Positions 15,661 to 20,335 of a DNA stretch of 64,000 nucleotides are shown one piece after another. The DNA comes from Tsuneonella amylolytica. GTDB lineage: Bacteria; Pseudomonadota; Alphaproteobacteria; Sphingomonadales; Sphingomonadaceae. The DNA is taken from assembly GCF_003626915.1 (NCBI RefSeq), contig NZ_CP032570.1:1364001-1428000 (forward strand), read 5' to 3'. The position numbers and the translations under genes are program-made. Each line of letters starts with the position of its first letter. Position 1 is the first letter of the stretch. The notes under the pieces were generated by a model. It saw only the letters and a list, made by a program, of their open reading frames with translations. It ran no database searches and was not told the DNA's origin.

Positions 15661-16403
15661 ACCGCCAGCTTGGCGAGCGCGACCAGCGCGGTCGCACCCA
15701 GCACGACAGCCACGAACAGTCGCCAGCGCCGGTCGTCGACCGTGCCGAACCGGCGCGCGCCCAGCCAGTTGCCCGCCAGCACCGCCGGTAGCAGGATCAG
15801 CGCCAGCAGCAGGAACTGTGGGCGCAGCAGCCCGAGCGCCGCACCAGAGATCAGGCTGACGGTCGAGGCGGCGGTGAAGACCAGCAGCATCGAGGCCTTC
15901 GCCACGGCACGCGGGATGTCGCGCCCGACGTAGTAGGGTACCACCGGCGGTCCCGGCATCCCGGCAAGTCCTGTCAGCACGCCGGTCGCCAGTCCGGTGG
16001 CGGCCGTCCGCGCCGCGCTCGGCGGGTCGGCCGACCGGCGCGGCAGCAGGATGGCGACGAAGGCCGACAGTGCGACCAGCGCGATGAGGACGCGGGCGAC
16101 CGGGTTGGGCATCACCGACAGCAGCCACAGACCCGGCGCGGTCGCGACCGCCACGCCGGCGATGATGCGCCACGCGGTGCTTTCCGCGTCGCGCAGGATC
16201 ATCCGCATGTCGCTGAGCCCGATGAGGACCGAGACCCCGTTCGTCACCAGCACCGCCTCGACCGGCGTCACCGCTAGCGCGAGGACCGGCACCAGCAGGA
16301 TTGCCATGCCGAAGCCCGCCAGCCCCCGCACGTAGGCGGCCGCGAACGCCGCCGCGAGCGCGCCGGCGATCTGAAACCCGTCGAACCCGATCGGCGCGTC
16401 CAA
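15657..16403 (-). CDS. TauE/SafE family sulfite/anion exporter
   Basis: A 248-residue inner-membrane protein with about eight hydrophobic segments and the repeated TauE/SafE pattern (GLAGFGMAIL near the N-terminus and TGLAGMPGPPVVPYY in the second half). The family exports sulfite, sulfoacetate or related small anions; the substrate here is unknown. It begins 10 bases after the thrS stop, so it could be read through from thrS. Its own stop overlaps the small ORF on the other strand. Confidence 0.85.
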   Translation of the reverse strand: MDAPIGFDGFQIAGALAAAFAAAYVRGLAGFGMAILLVPVLALAVTPVEAVLVTNGVSVLIGLSDMRMILRDAESTAWRIIAGVAVATAPGLWLLSVMPNPVARVLIALVALSAFVAILLPRRSADPPSAARTAATGLATGVLTGLAGMPGPPVVPYYVGRDIPRAVAKASMLLVFTAASTVSLISGAALGLLRPQFLLLALILLPAVLAGNWLGARRFGTVDDRRWRLFVAVVLGATALVALAKLAV

Positions 16404-16413
16404 GCCGGCCGGC

Positions 16414-18438
16414 TCAGCGCAGGTCGGGCGGGGTCGCCTCCGCGGTCAGCATGGCGATCGCCTCGGCCAGCGGCATGACCTTCTGGTGCTGTTCGCCCAG
16501 CGTGCGGACGGCGACGGTGCCCTCCTCCGCCTCGCGCTTGCCGACGACCAGCAGGTGCGGAACCTTGGCGAGGCTGTGCTCGCGCACCTTGTAGTTGATC
16601 TTCTCGTTGCGAAGGTCGCTCTCGACGCGGATGCCCGCCGCCGTCAGCTGCCTCACCACGTCGTGCGCGTAGTCGTCGGCATCCGAGACGATCGTCGCCA
16701 CCACCGCCTGCGTCGGCGCGAGCCAGACCGGCAGCTTGCCCGCGAAATGCTCGATCAGGAAGCCGATGAACCGCTCGTACGACCCGAATATCGCGCGGTG
16801 GAGCATGACCGGGCGGTGCCGCTCGCCGTCCTCGCCGACGTAGCTCGCGTCGAGCCGGTCGGGGAGCACGCGGTCGCCCTGGATCGTGCCGACCTGCCAG
16901 GTGCGGCCGATCGCATCGGTGAGGTGCCATTCGAGCTTGGGGGCATAGAACGCGCCCTCGCCCGGCAGTTCCTCCCAGCCGTAGTCCGCGTTGGCCATCC
17001 CGGCCTCGGCGACCGCGTCGCGCAGTTCCTGTTCGGCCTTGTCCCAGTCCGCCTCGCTGCCGAAGCGCTTTTCGGGGCGCAGGGCGAGCTTCACGTGATA
17101 GCTGAAGCCGAAGTCCGAATAGACCTCGTCGGCCAGCTTGCAGAACGCGCGCACCTCGTCGACGACCTGGTTCTCGGTGCAGAAGATGTGCGCGTCGTCC
17201 TGCGTGAACTGGCGCACGCGCATCAGGCCGTGGAGCGCGCCGTGCGGTTCGTTGCGGTGGCAGCAGCCCATCTCGCCGAGACGAATCGGCAGGTCGCGGT
17301 AGCTGGTGATGCCCTGCTTGAACACGAGCACGTGCGCCGGGCAATTCATCGGCTTGATCGCCATCCACTCGGCATCGGACGCGACTTTGGGCTCCGCGCC
17401 CGCCCCGCTGTCGTCGACCTCGGGCACGATGTCGGGCACCGCGAACATGTTCTCGGCGTACTTGCCCCAGTGGCCGGACTGTTCCCACTGGCGCACATCC
17501 ATCAGCTGCGGCGTCTTGATCTCTTGGTAGCCGGCAGCGTCCATCTTTCGGCGCATGTAGGCTTCGAGCGCGCGCCAGATTTTGAACCCCTGCGGATGCC
17601 AGAACACGCTGCCGTGCGCCTCTTCCTGCAGGTGGAACAGGTCCATCTCGCGCCCCAGCTTGCGGTGGTCGCGCTTGGCGGCTTCCTCCAGCCGGTGGAG
17701 GTGGGCATCGAGCTGCTTCTTGTTGAGCCAGCCGGTGCCGTAAATGCGCGTGAGCTGCGCGTTCTTCTGATCGCCGCGCCAGTACGCCCCGGCGACGCGC
17801 ATCAGTTTGAAGGCTTGCGGATCGAGCTTGCCCGTGCTGGCGAGATGCGGCCCGCGGCACATGTCGAGCCAGCTGCCTTCCTCGCCCGGATTGCCCGAGT
17901 GGTAGACCGTCAGCTCCTCGCCTTCCGGCAGCTCCTGCGCCCATTCGGCCTTGAACGTCTCGCCGTCGGCCAGCCACTTGTCGATCAGCTGCCGGCGGCT
18001 CCACACCTCGCGCACCAGCGGCTTGTCGGCGCGGATGATCTCGCGCATCTTGTCCTCGATCGCGGGCAGGTCGTCCATGCTGAACGGCTCGCGGCTCTCG
18101 GGTGCCTTGACGTCGTAGTAGAACCCGTCGTCCGTCGCCGGGCCGAAGGTGATCTGCGTACCCGGCCACAGCGCCTGGATCGCCTCGGCCAGCACGTGGG
18201 CGAAGTCGTGGCGCGCCAGTTCCAGCGCATCGGCCTCGTCGCGGCTCGTCACCAGCGCCAGCGCCGCGTCGCCTTCGAGCGGGCGGTTGAGATCGCGCAG
18301 TTCCCCGTCGACGCGCGCGGCGAGCGCTGCCTTGGCGAGGCCCGGGCCAATCGCCGCGGCGATGTCCGCCGGGGTGGTGCCGGGCTCGACCTCGCGCACC
18401 GAACCGTCGGGGAGGCTGATCTTGAGGAGCTCGCTCAT
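16414..18438 (-). CDS. thrS: Threonine-tRNA ligase
   Basis: Charges tRNA-Thr. The 674-residue enzyme has an N-terminal TGS domain (about 1-65), the editing domain with [12 protein letters not shown], and a class II catalytic core. Motif 2 is in [35 protein letters not shown], and zinc ligands include the Cys in [10 protein letters not shown]. The C-terminal anticodon domain contains VRTLGEQHQ. The ATG at 18438 is preceded by GAAGG at 5 bases and starts the TGS domain; the frame stays open upstream but without conservation. The 195-base leader upstream carries a threonine-rich peptide ORF and exclusive stem-loops, suggesting control by Thr-tRNA supply. Confidence 0.96.
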
Positions 18439-18458
18439 GGGTACCTTCGCTTGCGTTT

Positions 18459-18599
18459 GCGCGCCCTTGGCACATGCCAGCGCGCGCCGGAAGGCGTCAG
18501 TTAAGAGGACCGGTCCGGGGAGCCTGACGCCGCGCTGCCCCAACCGGGCGGCGGCGACCGGCGACTAGCGCGCTGGCGACCGCCCCCGGAACCCGGGGG
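18459..18599 (-). promoter_or_regulatory. Candidate attenuator/riboregulatory leader of thrS
   Basis: Several RNA elements are visible on the minus strand. Hairpin 1 (18583-18599, CCCCCGG-GTT-CCGGGGG) follows directly after the five Thr codons of the leader ORF. Segment A (18568-18577, GCCAGCGCGC) is perfectly complementary over 10 bases to segment B (18476-18485). Segment B is also the left arm of hairpin 3 (18459-18485, with GCGCGC and TGGC/GCCA stems). The A-B and hairpin 3 pairings therefore exclude each other. An 8-bp stem (18493-18500 / 18524-18531) lies between them. Hairpin 3 ends 20 bases before the thrS ATG and has no U-run, so translational or Rho-dependent control is more likely than intrinsic termination. 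Confidence 0.5.
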
Positions 18600-18633
18600 T
18601 AGTGGTGGTAGTGAGGGCGCGGATGCGTCGCAT
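18565..18633 (-). CDS. Threonine-rich leader peptide upstream of thrS
   Basis: A 22-residue ORF from ATG 18633 to TAG 18565, ending 126 bases before thrS. Residues 8-12 are five consecutive Thr codons (ACT ACC ACC ACT ACC, 18612-18598), followed at once by a stable GC hairpin. This is the classic layout of an amino-acid-sensing leader peptide, and the amino acid matches the substrate of the downstream synthetase. There is no Shine-Dalgarno site. However, a promoter-like pair places the likely transcription start at the A of this ATG, as in leaderless alphaproteobacterial trpL. The match of codon identity and gene is seen directly; the regulatory role is inferred (pheST of E. coli is a precedent for synthetase attenuation). 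Confidence 0.6.
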   Translation of the reverse strand: MRRIRALTTTTTPGFRGRSPAR

Positions 18634-18640
18634 GGCCGCC

Positions 18641-18669
18641 GATGTAGCGCGCCGGCCGCCGATTGTCGA
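18641..18669 (-). promoter_or_regulatory. Candidate promoter of the thrS leader transcript
   Basis: On the minus strand TCGACA (18669-18664) and TACATC (18646-18641) are separated by exactly 17 bases. Seven bases then lead to the leader ATG at 18633, so the predicted start site is the A of ATG or very close to it. The -10 match is poor, but spacing and position are good. Confidence 0.4.
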
Positions 18670-18685
18670 TGCCCGGGTGAGCGCC

Positions 18686-20335
18686 CTAGCTTGCCGTCAG
18701 CCGCCGTGCGCCGTGCTCCGCCACCATCCGGTGGGTGCCCGCCAGCGCCGCCGAGCGGGTCTTCACCGACCCGCTGAAGCGCCATTCGCAGCTCGCCCGC
18801 GCCGGCGTCAGTTCGACTGCCATGTAGCCCCGCCGGGTGGCATCCATCCACGCCAGCCCTTCGTTGAACGCGACCAGCGCTCTTGCTGCAGCCTGCGCGC
18901 GCGGGACCCCGAAGTAGGCTTCGAAGCCGGGCGAGGAGACCGACTGGCCGGCGAATTCCACGCCCACCGGCGCGCCGTCGTTCGCAAGGTCGAACGCCCA
19001 AGCGTTGTGGGTGTCCCCGGTCAGGGTGACGAGGTTCGCGCCCGCTTCTTGCGCGGCCGCCAGCAACCGCTTGCGCGCCGCGGGATACCCGTCCCACGCA
19101 TCCATGTTCGACGGCAGTCCGGCCGCCCCGGCGCGCACCGCGCTGGCGATACGCGCCCGGACGTAGTCGGGCGCGCCTGCCGCTGCCGCCTGGGCGATGG
19201 CGGGCGGGGTCCTGAGGCTGCCGAGCACGACCTGCTGTACCAGCACCTGCCATTTACGACCCGAGCGCACCGATGCGGCCATCGTCCCGGCGAGCCAGCC
19301 TTCCTGCTCGGTGCCCAGCATCGAGCGCGCGGGATCGGCCCACGCCCCGTCCCTGAGCGAGGCGAGCGCGCCGTCGATCGCCTGCGGCGGCAGCCCCTTG
19401 AGCATGTCCGACAGGTCGAGCGGCTTGTCGCGCGCGGTCAGCCGGGTCTCGATCCGCAGCAGGGTCGCAAGGTCGCCCACGTCGTAGCGCGCCCACGGCG
19501 CTTCGCTCACCGGCAGCCATTCGCTGCGCGCCTGCATCGCCGCGCGGGTGCGGGCGGCCCACGGCCCTTCGGTTTCGGGCTGGTGGTTCTGCGCCCCGCC
19601 CTTCCATGCGTCGTTCGCGGTCTCGTGATCGTCGAACACCGCGATCATCGGGACCATGGCGTGCAGCCGCCGCAAGTCGGGATCGCTGCGATAGCTGGCA
19701 TAGCGCGCGCGGTAGTCGGCGAGGTGGATCAGTTCGTTCGCGGGCGCCGGTACGCGCCCGGCCACCGCCTCGTCGGCACTCGGGTAGTTGCCGGGATCGT
19801 ATTCGTAGAGATAATCGCCGAGATGCACCGCGAGGTCGAAATCGCCCGCCGCGCCCGCGTGCGCATATGCGTTGAAATAGCCGAACCCCATGTTGGAGCA
19901 GCTGAACACCGCCATGCGGAACCGGTCGGTCCTGCCCTCCGGCAGAGTGCGCGTGCGCCCGGTCTCCGAGACGGTGCCGTCGGGCGCGACGAAGCGGTAG
20001 CGGTACCAGCGCCCGGGGGCGAGGTTGCCCGCAACCGCCTTGACGCACCAGTCGCTTTCCGGCCCGGCGACGACATCGCCGCCCGATACGACCTTCGCGA
20101 AATCCTCGGCCTCCGCCACTTCCCAGCGCAGCCGGTCCGCGCCCGTGCCGACATAGCGGGTCCACAGCAGGACCGAGCGGGCCGAAGGCTCCCCGCTCGC
20201 GACACCGTGCGTGAACCCGCGCCCGCCCTGCGCGGCGAGCGGGCTGGCGGCGAGGCCCAGCCCCAGCGCGCCCCCGCGCAGGAGGCTGCGGCGGTCGAGC
20301 GACGGGATTGCGGGACCGTTCGGAATGTGCGGCAT
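18686..20335 (-). CDS. phoD: PhoD-family alkaline phosphatase/phosphodiesterase, Tat-exported
   Basis: A 549-residue protein with a twin-arginine signal (DRRSLLRGGALGLGLAAS, from about residue 14) and the PhoD catalytic fold. Metal-site segments include VFSCSNMGFGYFNAY, VHLGDYLYEY, FDDHETANDAW and LTGDTHNAW. It releases phosphate from phosphodi- or monoesters outside the cytoplasm, with Ca/Fe as known cofactors of the family. The ATG at 20335 is supported by AGAGGA 7 bases upstream and directly precedes the Tat signal. A Pho-box-like repeat with a -10-like element upstream suggests induction by phosphate starvation. Confidence 0.9.
   Translation of the reverse strand: MPHIPNGPAIPSLDRRSLLRGGALGLGLAASPLAAQGGRGFTHGVASGEPSARSVLLWTRYVGTGADRLRWEVAEAEDFAKVVSGGDVVAGPESDWCVKAVAGNLAPGRWYRYRFVAPDGTVSETGRTRTLPEGRTDRFRMAVFSCSNMGFGYFNAYAHAGAAGDFDLAVHLGDYLYEYDPGNYPSADEAVAGRVPAPANELIHLADYRARYASYRSDPDLRRLHAMVPMIAVFDDHETANDAWKGGAQNHQPETEGPWAARTRAAMQARSEWLPVSEAPWARYDVGDLATLLRIETRLTARDKPLDLSDMLKGLPPQAIDGALASLRDGAWADPARSMLGTEQEGWLAGTMAASVRSGRKWQVLVQQVVLGSLRTPPAIAQAAAAGAPDYVRARIASAVRAGAAGLPSNMDAWDGYPAARKRLLAAAQEAGANLVTLTGDTHNAWAFDLANDGAPVGVEFAGQSVSSPGFEAYFGVPRAQAAARALVAFNEGLAWMDATRRGYMAVELTPARASCEWRFSGSVKTRSAALAGTHRMVAEHGARRLTAS

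Follow-up and report, generated by a model that had tools for sequence, protein, structure and literature searches.

The question raised by this locus is whether the supply of threonyl-tRNA synthetase (ThrRS) is adjusted by the reading of a short run of threonine codons ahead of the synthetase gene. On the minus strand of the analyzed DNA, a stretch of 64,000 nucleotides that is called the window in the following, a leader open reading frame (ORF) lies 195 nt upstream of the thrS ATG, the first base of which is position 18438.

The threonine leader and its conservation

The leader and its gene comprise the following features.

18565..18633, minus strand: leader ORF of 22 codons, encoding the peptide MRRIRALTTTTTPGFRGRSPAR, with the stop codon after it; conserved in relatives
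18598..18612, minus strand: Thr run ACT ACC ACC ACT ACC in the sequence, the presumed sensor
16414..18438, minus strand: thrS, threonyl-tRNA synthetase (Pfam TGS, tRNA_SAD, tRNA-synt_2b, and HGTP_anticodon)
18444..18448, minus strand: GAAGG, a possible thrS Shine-Dalgarno motif, from the sequence only
18664..18669, minus strand: -35 box TCGACA of the promoter-like signature P1 (pattern in relatives)
18641..18646, minus strand: -10 box TACATC of P1, 7 nt before the leader ATG (spacing in relatives)

The 22-residue ORF with five consecutive Thr codons, followed immediately by a GC hairpin (CCCCCGG, 18599-18593, with CCGGGGG, 18589-18583), had been described in the first-pass annotation and is present in the letters. 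Its core idea, a threonine leader peptide upstream of thrS together with RNA pairings that exclude each other, finds support in the comparison of relatives.

For this comparison, 80 loci were taken as the best ThrRS matches, with protein similarity as the sole criterion, and a Thr-run leader starting with ATG is found directly upstream of thrS in 49 of them; 51 had passed an automatic filter for Thr-rich ATG ORFs, from which L008 and L067 were removed as chance ORFs more than 380 nt away. In four further loci of the 80 (L015, L017, L060, and L077), the leader is located one gene farther upstream. The first-pass annotation had named a Thr run in orthologous leaders as a check on its proposal, and the 49 loci bear it out. 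Among 1127 leader Thr codons, ACC accounts for 57%, ACT for 20%, ACG for 19%, and ACA for 5%; since all four codons occur, it is the residue that is kept and not the letters. Judged by this comparison, the leader before thrS is real and conserved, and, being conserved, the ORF and its Thr run are beyond chance. The codon usage itself is biased in the 156 leaders counted: the share of ACT compares with 6% of the 2094 Thr codons in the thrS genes and that of ACG with 36%, as if the codons of one Thr tRNA were favoured.

An RNA model (R1), built from 40 Thr-leader sequences, gave matches at E ≤0.01 in 169 of the 396 genomes searched from the order. Of its matches, 149 were taken for inspection, 141 of which include the thrS start; 130 of these pass the automatic Thr-leader filter and 11 fail, while three of the 130 (L225, L226, and L230) look wrong or decayed. 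The rest of the 149 consists of six cases of a sister arrangement, described below, and two chance matches. The tally of 130 out of 149 is partly circular, because the model was built from Thr-leader sequences, which does not apply to the count of 49 out of 80. Among the leaders that fail the filter, L171 has a frame change, and the Thr runs of L194, from the same genus as the window, and of L234 are weak or decayed. The window's genome, searched as a single contig of 2,786,135 bases, holds one good copy (E 2e-26), the next match being at 0.028. In the class-wide search, 11 of 385 genomes matched at E ≤0.001; four of them belong to the window's family, to which the strong matches are confined, and the matches of the other seven are short and weak (E 5.7e-5 to 7e-4). 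No Rfam covariance model matched at its gathering score anywhere in the whole 64-kb window, and at E up to 10 just two weak matches, away from the leader, appeared in positions 16000-20000.

The leader transcript would probably start at the leader AUG. A pair of TTGACA/TATAAT-like boxes, counted when at least 7 of 12 bases match, occurs upstream of the leader in 135 of the 156 loci with enough sequence, compared with 9% of shuffles; 128 of the 135 pairs are spaced by 17 bp and the other 7 by 16 bp, and in 103 of these 135 loci 6-8 nt separate the -10 box from the leader ATG. A 4-base Shine-Dalgarno match upstream of the leader ATG is found in just 7 of 156. With a start at the AUG, the leader would be read without a 5′ untranslated region. 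A promoter scan of the window found none; the P1 boxes match in 8 of 12 bases, which is below the threshold of that scan.

Alternative helices and the proposed switch

The RNA between the leader and thrS, as well as the end of the leader itself, contains the segments listed below, the names of which are taken from the alignment of relatives. They were judged by the two tests described thereafter.

18593..18599, minus strand: segment 0, CCCCCGG, which can pair with A
18580..18589, minus strand: segment A, CCGGGGGCGG, within the leader ORF at its Arg-Gly-Arg codons
18544..18554, minus strand: segment B, CCGCCGCCCGG, partner of A or C
18533..18547, minus strand: segment C, partner of B or F
18524..18531, minus strand: segment D, GGCGTCAG
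18510..18520, minus strand: segment F, CCCCGGACCGG, which can pair with C and sits in the D:E loop
18493..18500, minus strand: segment E, CTGACGCC, the exact 8-bp partner of D
18459..18487, minus strand: hairpin H, with segment G in its 5′ arm

In the arm-swap test, the own arms of 99 representatives with less than 75% identity were compared with swapped arms; it was applied to windows of sequence because the MAFFT alignment misplaces segment E of the analyzed DNA. The z values are -13.7 for C:F, -9.9 for D:E, -6.7 for 0:A, -5.9 for the arms of H, -5.6 for A:B, -4.6 for B:C, and -3.9 for E:G, while in the control combinations A:C (-1.2), C:E (+1.3), D:F (+2.3), and B:F (+0.8) own arms are not better. 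As relatedness inflates such tests, the test was rerun with 66 disjoint sister pairs. Signals were kept for C:F (p 0.0004), D:E (p 0.0017), H (p 0.0035), and B:C (p 0.035); they were lost for 0:A (p 0.13), A:B (p 0.35), and E:G (p 0.5), and none of nine controls fell below 0.05. Covarying stems, the second check named in the first-pass annotation, are thus represented by C:F, D:E, and B:C. From 40 sequences, RNAalifold returned only B:C and one hairpin of three pairs, at a covariation term of -0.27; neither C:F nor D:E was recovered.

According to these data, the mutually exclusive helices C:F versus B:C together with D:E are backed by covariation, and the conserved switch would be A:B with C:F against B:C with D:E, A:B being the weaker part. 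The existence of exclusive pairings, as claimed in the first-pass annotation, is therewith upheld, but the pairings named there are not the conserved set, and the two best-supported helices, C:F and D:E, are missing from it. It had proposed that the end of the leader pairs with positions 18476-18485. Indeed, GCCAGCGCGC (18577-18568) and GCGCGCTGGC (18485-18476) are exact reverse complements, yet this 10-base pairing is not conserved, and own arms are no better than swapped ones (z +0.7; 1551 of 2000 permutations as good among the 99 representatives). It was therefore rejected as a conserved switch helix and is probably a product of the palindromic GCGC sequence.

Two departures from the common layout were seen among relatives. 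In L050, the leader is joined straight to hairpin H, and segments B to E are absent; in L027 and L199, a palindromic element is inserted in the F-E loop with the flanking arms retained, and the leader-thrS distance is 293 nt.

Quite likely, the whole is an attenuator of the ribosome-mediated kind, with charged tRNA-Thr as its signal and thrS as its target, and it would probably let the cell make more ThrRS when threonine is short. The leader, its Thr run, and the helices B:C, C:F, and D:E are supported by comparison, A:B more weakly; we infer the start site, the identity of the on state, and the off-step. Transcription from P1 would start at the leader AUG. With plentiful Thr-tRNA, a ribosome at the leader stop codon would cover segment A, so that B:C and D:E form and the switch is off. 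With scarce Thr-tRNA, the ribosome would stall on the Thr codons and A would capture B; the freed segment C would pair with F before E is made, D would be trapped in the C:F loop, and D:E could not form, leaving the switch on.

Folding models of 153 sequences were made for the RNA up to just before E, with ribosome footprints of 11, 14, or 17 nt, C:F being called present at three or more expected pairs. For the 14-nt footprint, C:F reaches this level in 31 of the 153 sequences if the ribosome has arrived at the stop codon, and in 92, 111, and 115 if it stalls at Thr codon 1, 2, or 3 of the run, respectively. The corresponding numbers for the 11-nt footprint are 19 versus 76-111, and for the 17-nt footprint 77, even at the stop codon, versus 111-125. 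The modelled shift before E is made fits the expected direction, but it is footprint-dependent, and the window's own sequence switches cleanly in some settings only. When E is present, D:E is dominant at equilibrium in 147 of 153 models in which the ribosome has reached the stop codon, but it also beats C:F in 109-131 of 153 stalled models; since D:E wins at equilibrium, the switch would have to be kinetic.

The presumed off-step, a possible second promoter and a sister arrangement

In the window, D:E ends 54 nt upstream of the thrS ATG and thus neither covers nor abuts the thrS ribosome binding site. At least five T within the next 9 nt after D:E are present in just 5 of 153 sequences, and no terminator was found in the window, so that the hairpin followed by a U-tract, which defines an intrinsic-terminator attenuator, is not seen. 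Given the switch, the likeliest off-step is that transcription ends early at D:E, intrinsically or with the aid of Rho, although a normal U-tract is lacking; this has about an even chance of being correct, and a translational effect comes next.

The stretch between E and thrS carries a second promoter-like signature, P2.

18465..18493, minus strand: P2, CTTCCG-N17-CCAAGG, directly upstream of thrS (17-bp pattern in relatives)

Of 159 leader sequences, 117 have the pattern CTT-N20-box, with a 17-bp spacer, between E and thrS; with each of the other spacers between 12 and 22 bp, no more than 13 do. The window's copy shares positions with hairpin H as well as with the final base of E. By eye, P2-like boxes also precede thrS in relatives without the leader. 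We infer a second promoter here, which would give basal thrS expression bypassing the switch. L228, L229, L233, and L235, which are also among the 11 that fail the leader filter, have lost the leader but retain the H region just before thrS together with the P2 boxes and E; this stretch would survive where the leader is lost because P2 is there. The generality of P2 as a promoter class was not established in a scan of the 687 ORFs of the window and the 80 loci: 28 of 38 matches fell in one distance bin and may for the most part reflect the thrS starts as such, and CTTG-N17-CTAN was counted six times versus one to three times at other spacings. In L008, L009, L012, L013, and L037, CTTGGC-N17-CTAGGT-like boxes were seen 7-9 nt before the thrS ATG, which suggests a possibly leaderless thrS at these loci.

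In some relatives, the switch is located upstream of a gene for an Rv2179c-like 3′-5′ exoribonuclease, and thrS is next; this sister arrangement was seen in L336-L348 as well as in L015, L017, L060, and L077. The identity of the exoribonuclease is based on PDB 6s0m (E 5.2e-5) and on Pfam PF16473, the latter at E 0.0044, below its cut-off. Homologues occur in 90 of 397 genomes of the window's family at E ≤1e-10, and the neighbourhoods of the best 30 of these 90 were viewed. In each of the 13 closest of the 30 (at least 66%), a Thr leader precedes the gene by 158-163 nt and thrS follows after 62-94 nt, on the same strand, while the other 17 (41-52%) have neither the Thr leader nor thrS. Helix D:E ends at most 12 nt before the exoribonuclease ATG in all 15 unique sequences, with a search window that stopped 8 nt before the ATG. 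In permutations of these 15 sequences, uncorrected for kinship, 0 of 2000 were as good for C:F and 19 of 2000 for D:E. With its end so close to the exoribonuclease start codon, D:E would probably block ribosome binding there; start-site occlusion is therefore seen in the sister arrangement and not in that of the window. Tentatively, and with somewhat less than an even chance of being right, one Thr-tRNA switch would serve interchangeable outputs, controlling either thrS directly or, with D:E blocking the start, the exoribonuclease gene and then thrS.

If translation is blocked in the sister arrangement, for which this is the best explanation, a translational switch might also be considered for the window's arrangement, with hairpin H as the off structure, toggled by the pairing of E with segment G. 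The first-pass annotation had likewise assigned a competing role to a hairpin beside the thrS ATG. The arms of H covary in both tests, and E:G has a negative swap z value, but the latter fails with the sister pairs. Modelled thrS start access amounts to 0.50 for free E and to 0.52 for paired E, which is the wrong direction; the pairs of H decrease from 7.22 to 6.50 when E is free, with a fall of more than one pair in 50 of 153 sequences and a rise in 28. Furthermore, H ends 20 nt before the ATG and overlaps P2. The covariation of the hairpin thus stands, while modelling gives no link to thrS start access; H was rejected as the main off structure, and the translational reading of the window's arrangement is rather unlikely.

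Compared with the attenuator acting in cis, an action in trans of the leader peptide or of a short attenuated RNA, such as that of Sinorhizobium meliloti peTrpL and rnTrpL, the precedent described in PMC7298713, is improbable. The last residues (RGRxxA-like) are indeed similar in many leaders. Because segment A is encoded by the conserved leader end, that similarity is explained without trans action.

In E. coli, ThrRS represses its own thrS mRNA by binding tRNA-like hairpins. A corresponding repression, to which the Thr ORF would be secondary, has very little probability at the present locus: hairpin H sits at a possible operator position, and E. coli ThrRS autoregulation is mentioned in PMC2965389, but the Thr run would be left unexplained. 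Hairpin H was also rejected as a tRNA-like operator, as no constant anticodon-like loop was seen in it by eye.

Least probable of all is that there is no regulation, only GC-rich palindromes around two promoters and a chance Thr ORF: the GC-rich arms pair well even when swapped (means of -6.8 to -17.4 kcal/mol) and P2 would account for the conservation just before thrS, but the ORF in 49 of 80 loci, the synonymous Thr codons, and a covariation of C:F and D:E that exceeds the controls all speak against it.

Relation to known attenuators and meaning

In the ribosome-mediated attenuators known from amino acid operons and from E. coli pheST, a short ORF rich in cognate codons is combined with competing helices and a downstream gene tied to that amino acid. 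The switch of the window equals the pheST type in these three respects; it differs in having no U-tract terminator and in carrying the P2-like signature between switch and gene, and in the sister arrangement the off helix abuts a start codon. T-boxes likewise sense tRNA charging and control synthetase genes, but they do so without the reading of an ORF, and none was matched in the window.

For Streptomyces lividans TK24, PMC8079986 reports a leaderless thrL, encoding the peptide MKRVRPFLETTPGFVPAR with two Thr, upstream of thrS. The Thr leader before thrS, a hairpin without a U-rich stretch, and probably also the transcript start at the leader are common to both systems; the likeness is one of context only, and S. 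lividans belongs to a different phylum. For thrL, no alternative helices are given in the relevant passages of PMC8079986. Within the alphaproteobacteria, S. meliloti trpL is a leaderless attenuator whose RNA begins with the leader ATG, as is probable here; according to PMC7298713, it differs in sensing Trp, in controlling trpE(G), and in using a transcription terminator.

Outside the window's family, 144 genomes were searched with ThrRS, and the upstream regions of the better-matching 85, of which 83 are outside the family, were viewed. Four of these 83 contain a short ORF with at least four Thr in eight residues; L274, L257, and L277 are leader-like, and L272 is not. The locus L277, from another alphaproteobacterial family, is a textbook attenuator: it shares with the window a Thr ORF, MFKRPTIETTATTTLLEGP, before thrS, and its end segment GGAGGGTC can pair with GACCCTCC, but an ordinary hairpin followed by TTTTTT is present, and no R1 match is reported for it. 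It looks like an independent solution.

Leader-peptide attenuation, the leaderless thrL before thrS in S. lividans, and the leaderless trpL in S. meliloti are thus known already. The first-pass annotation knew of no described Thr leader for an alphaproteobacterial thrS, and no report of one was found in the open-access literature either.

Summarizing, a well-supported, hitherto unlisted cis-acting RNA is added to the Sphingomonadales, the two alternative folds of which can be traced by covariation. One sensor is apparently joined to two outputs, which makes attenuator evolution testable. As the U-tract is missing, it may be asked by which step attenuators of this type shut off expression; according to the authors of PMC8079986, this also applies to S. 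lividans thrL. If the proposed switch is true, threonine shortage would raise ThrRS and, in the sister group, an RNA-degrading enzyme via the same switch, with P2 keeping up a basal ThrRS supply. The link to the exoribonuclease hints at a possible coupling of RNA decay to amino acid shortage.
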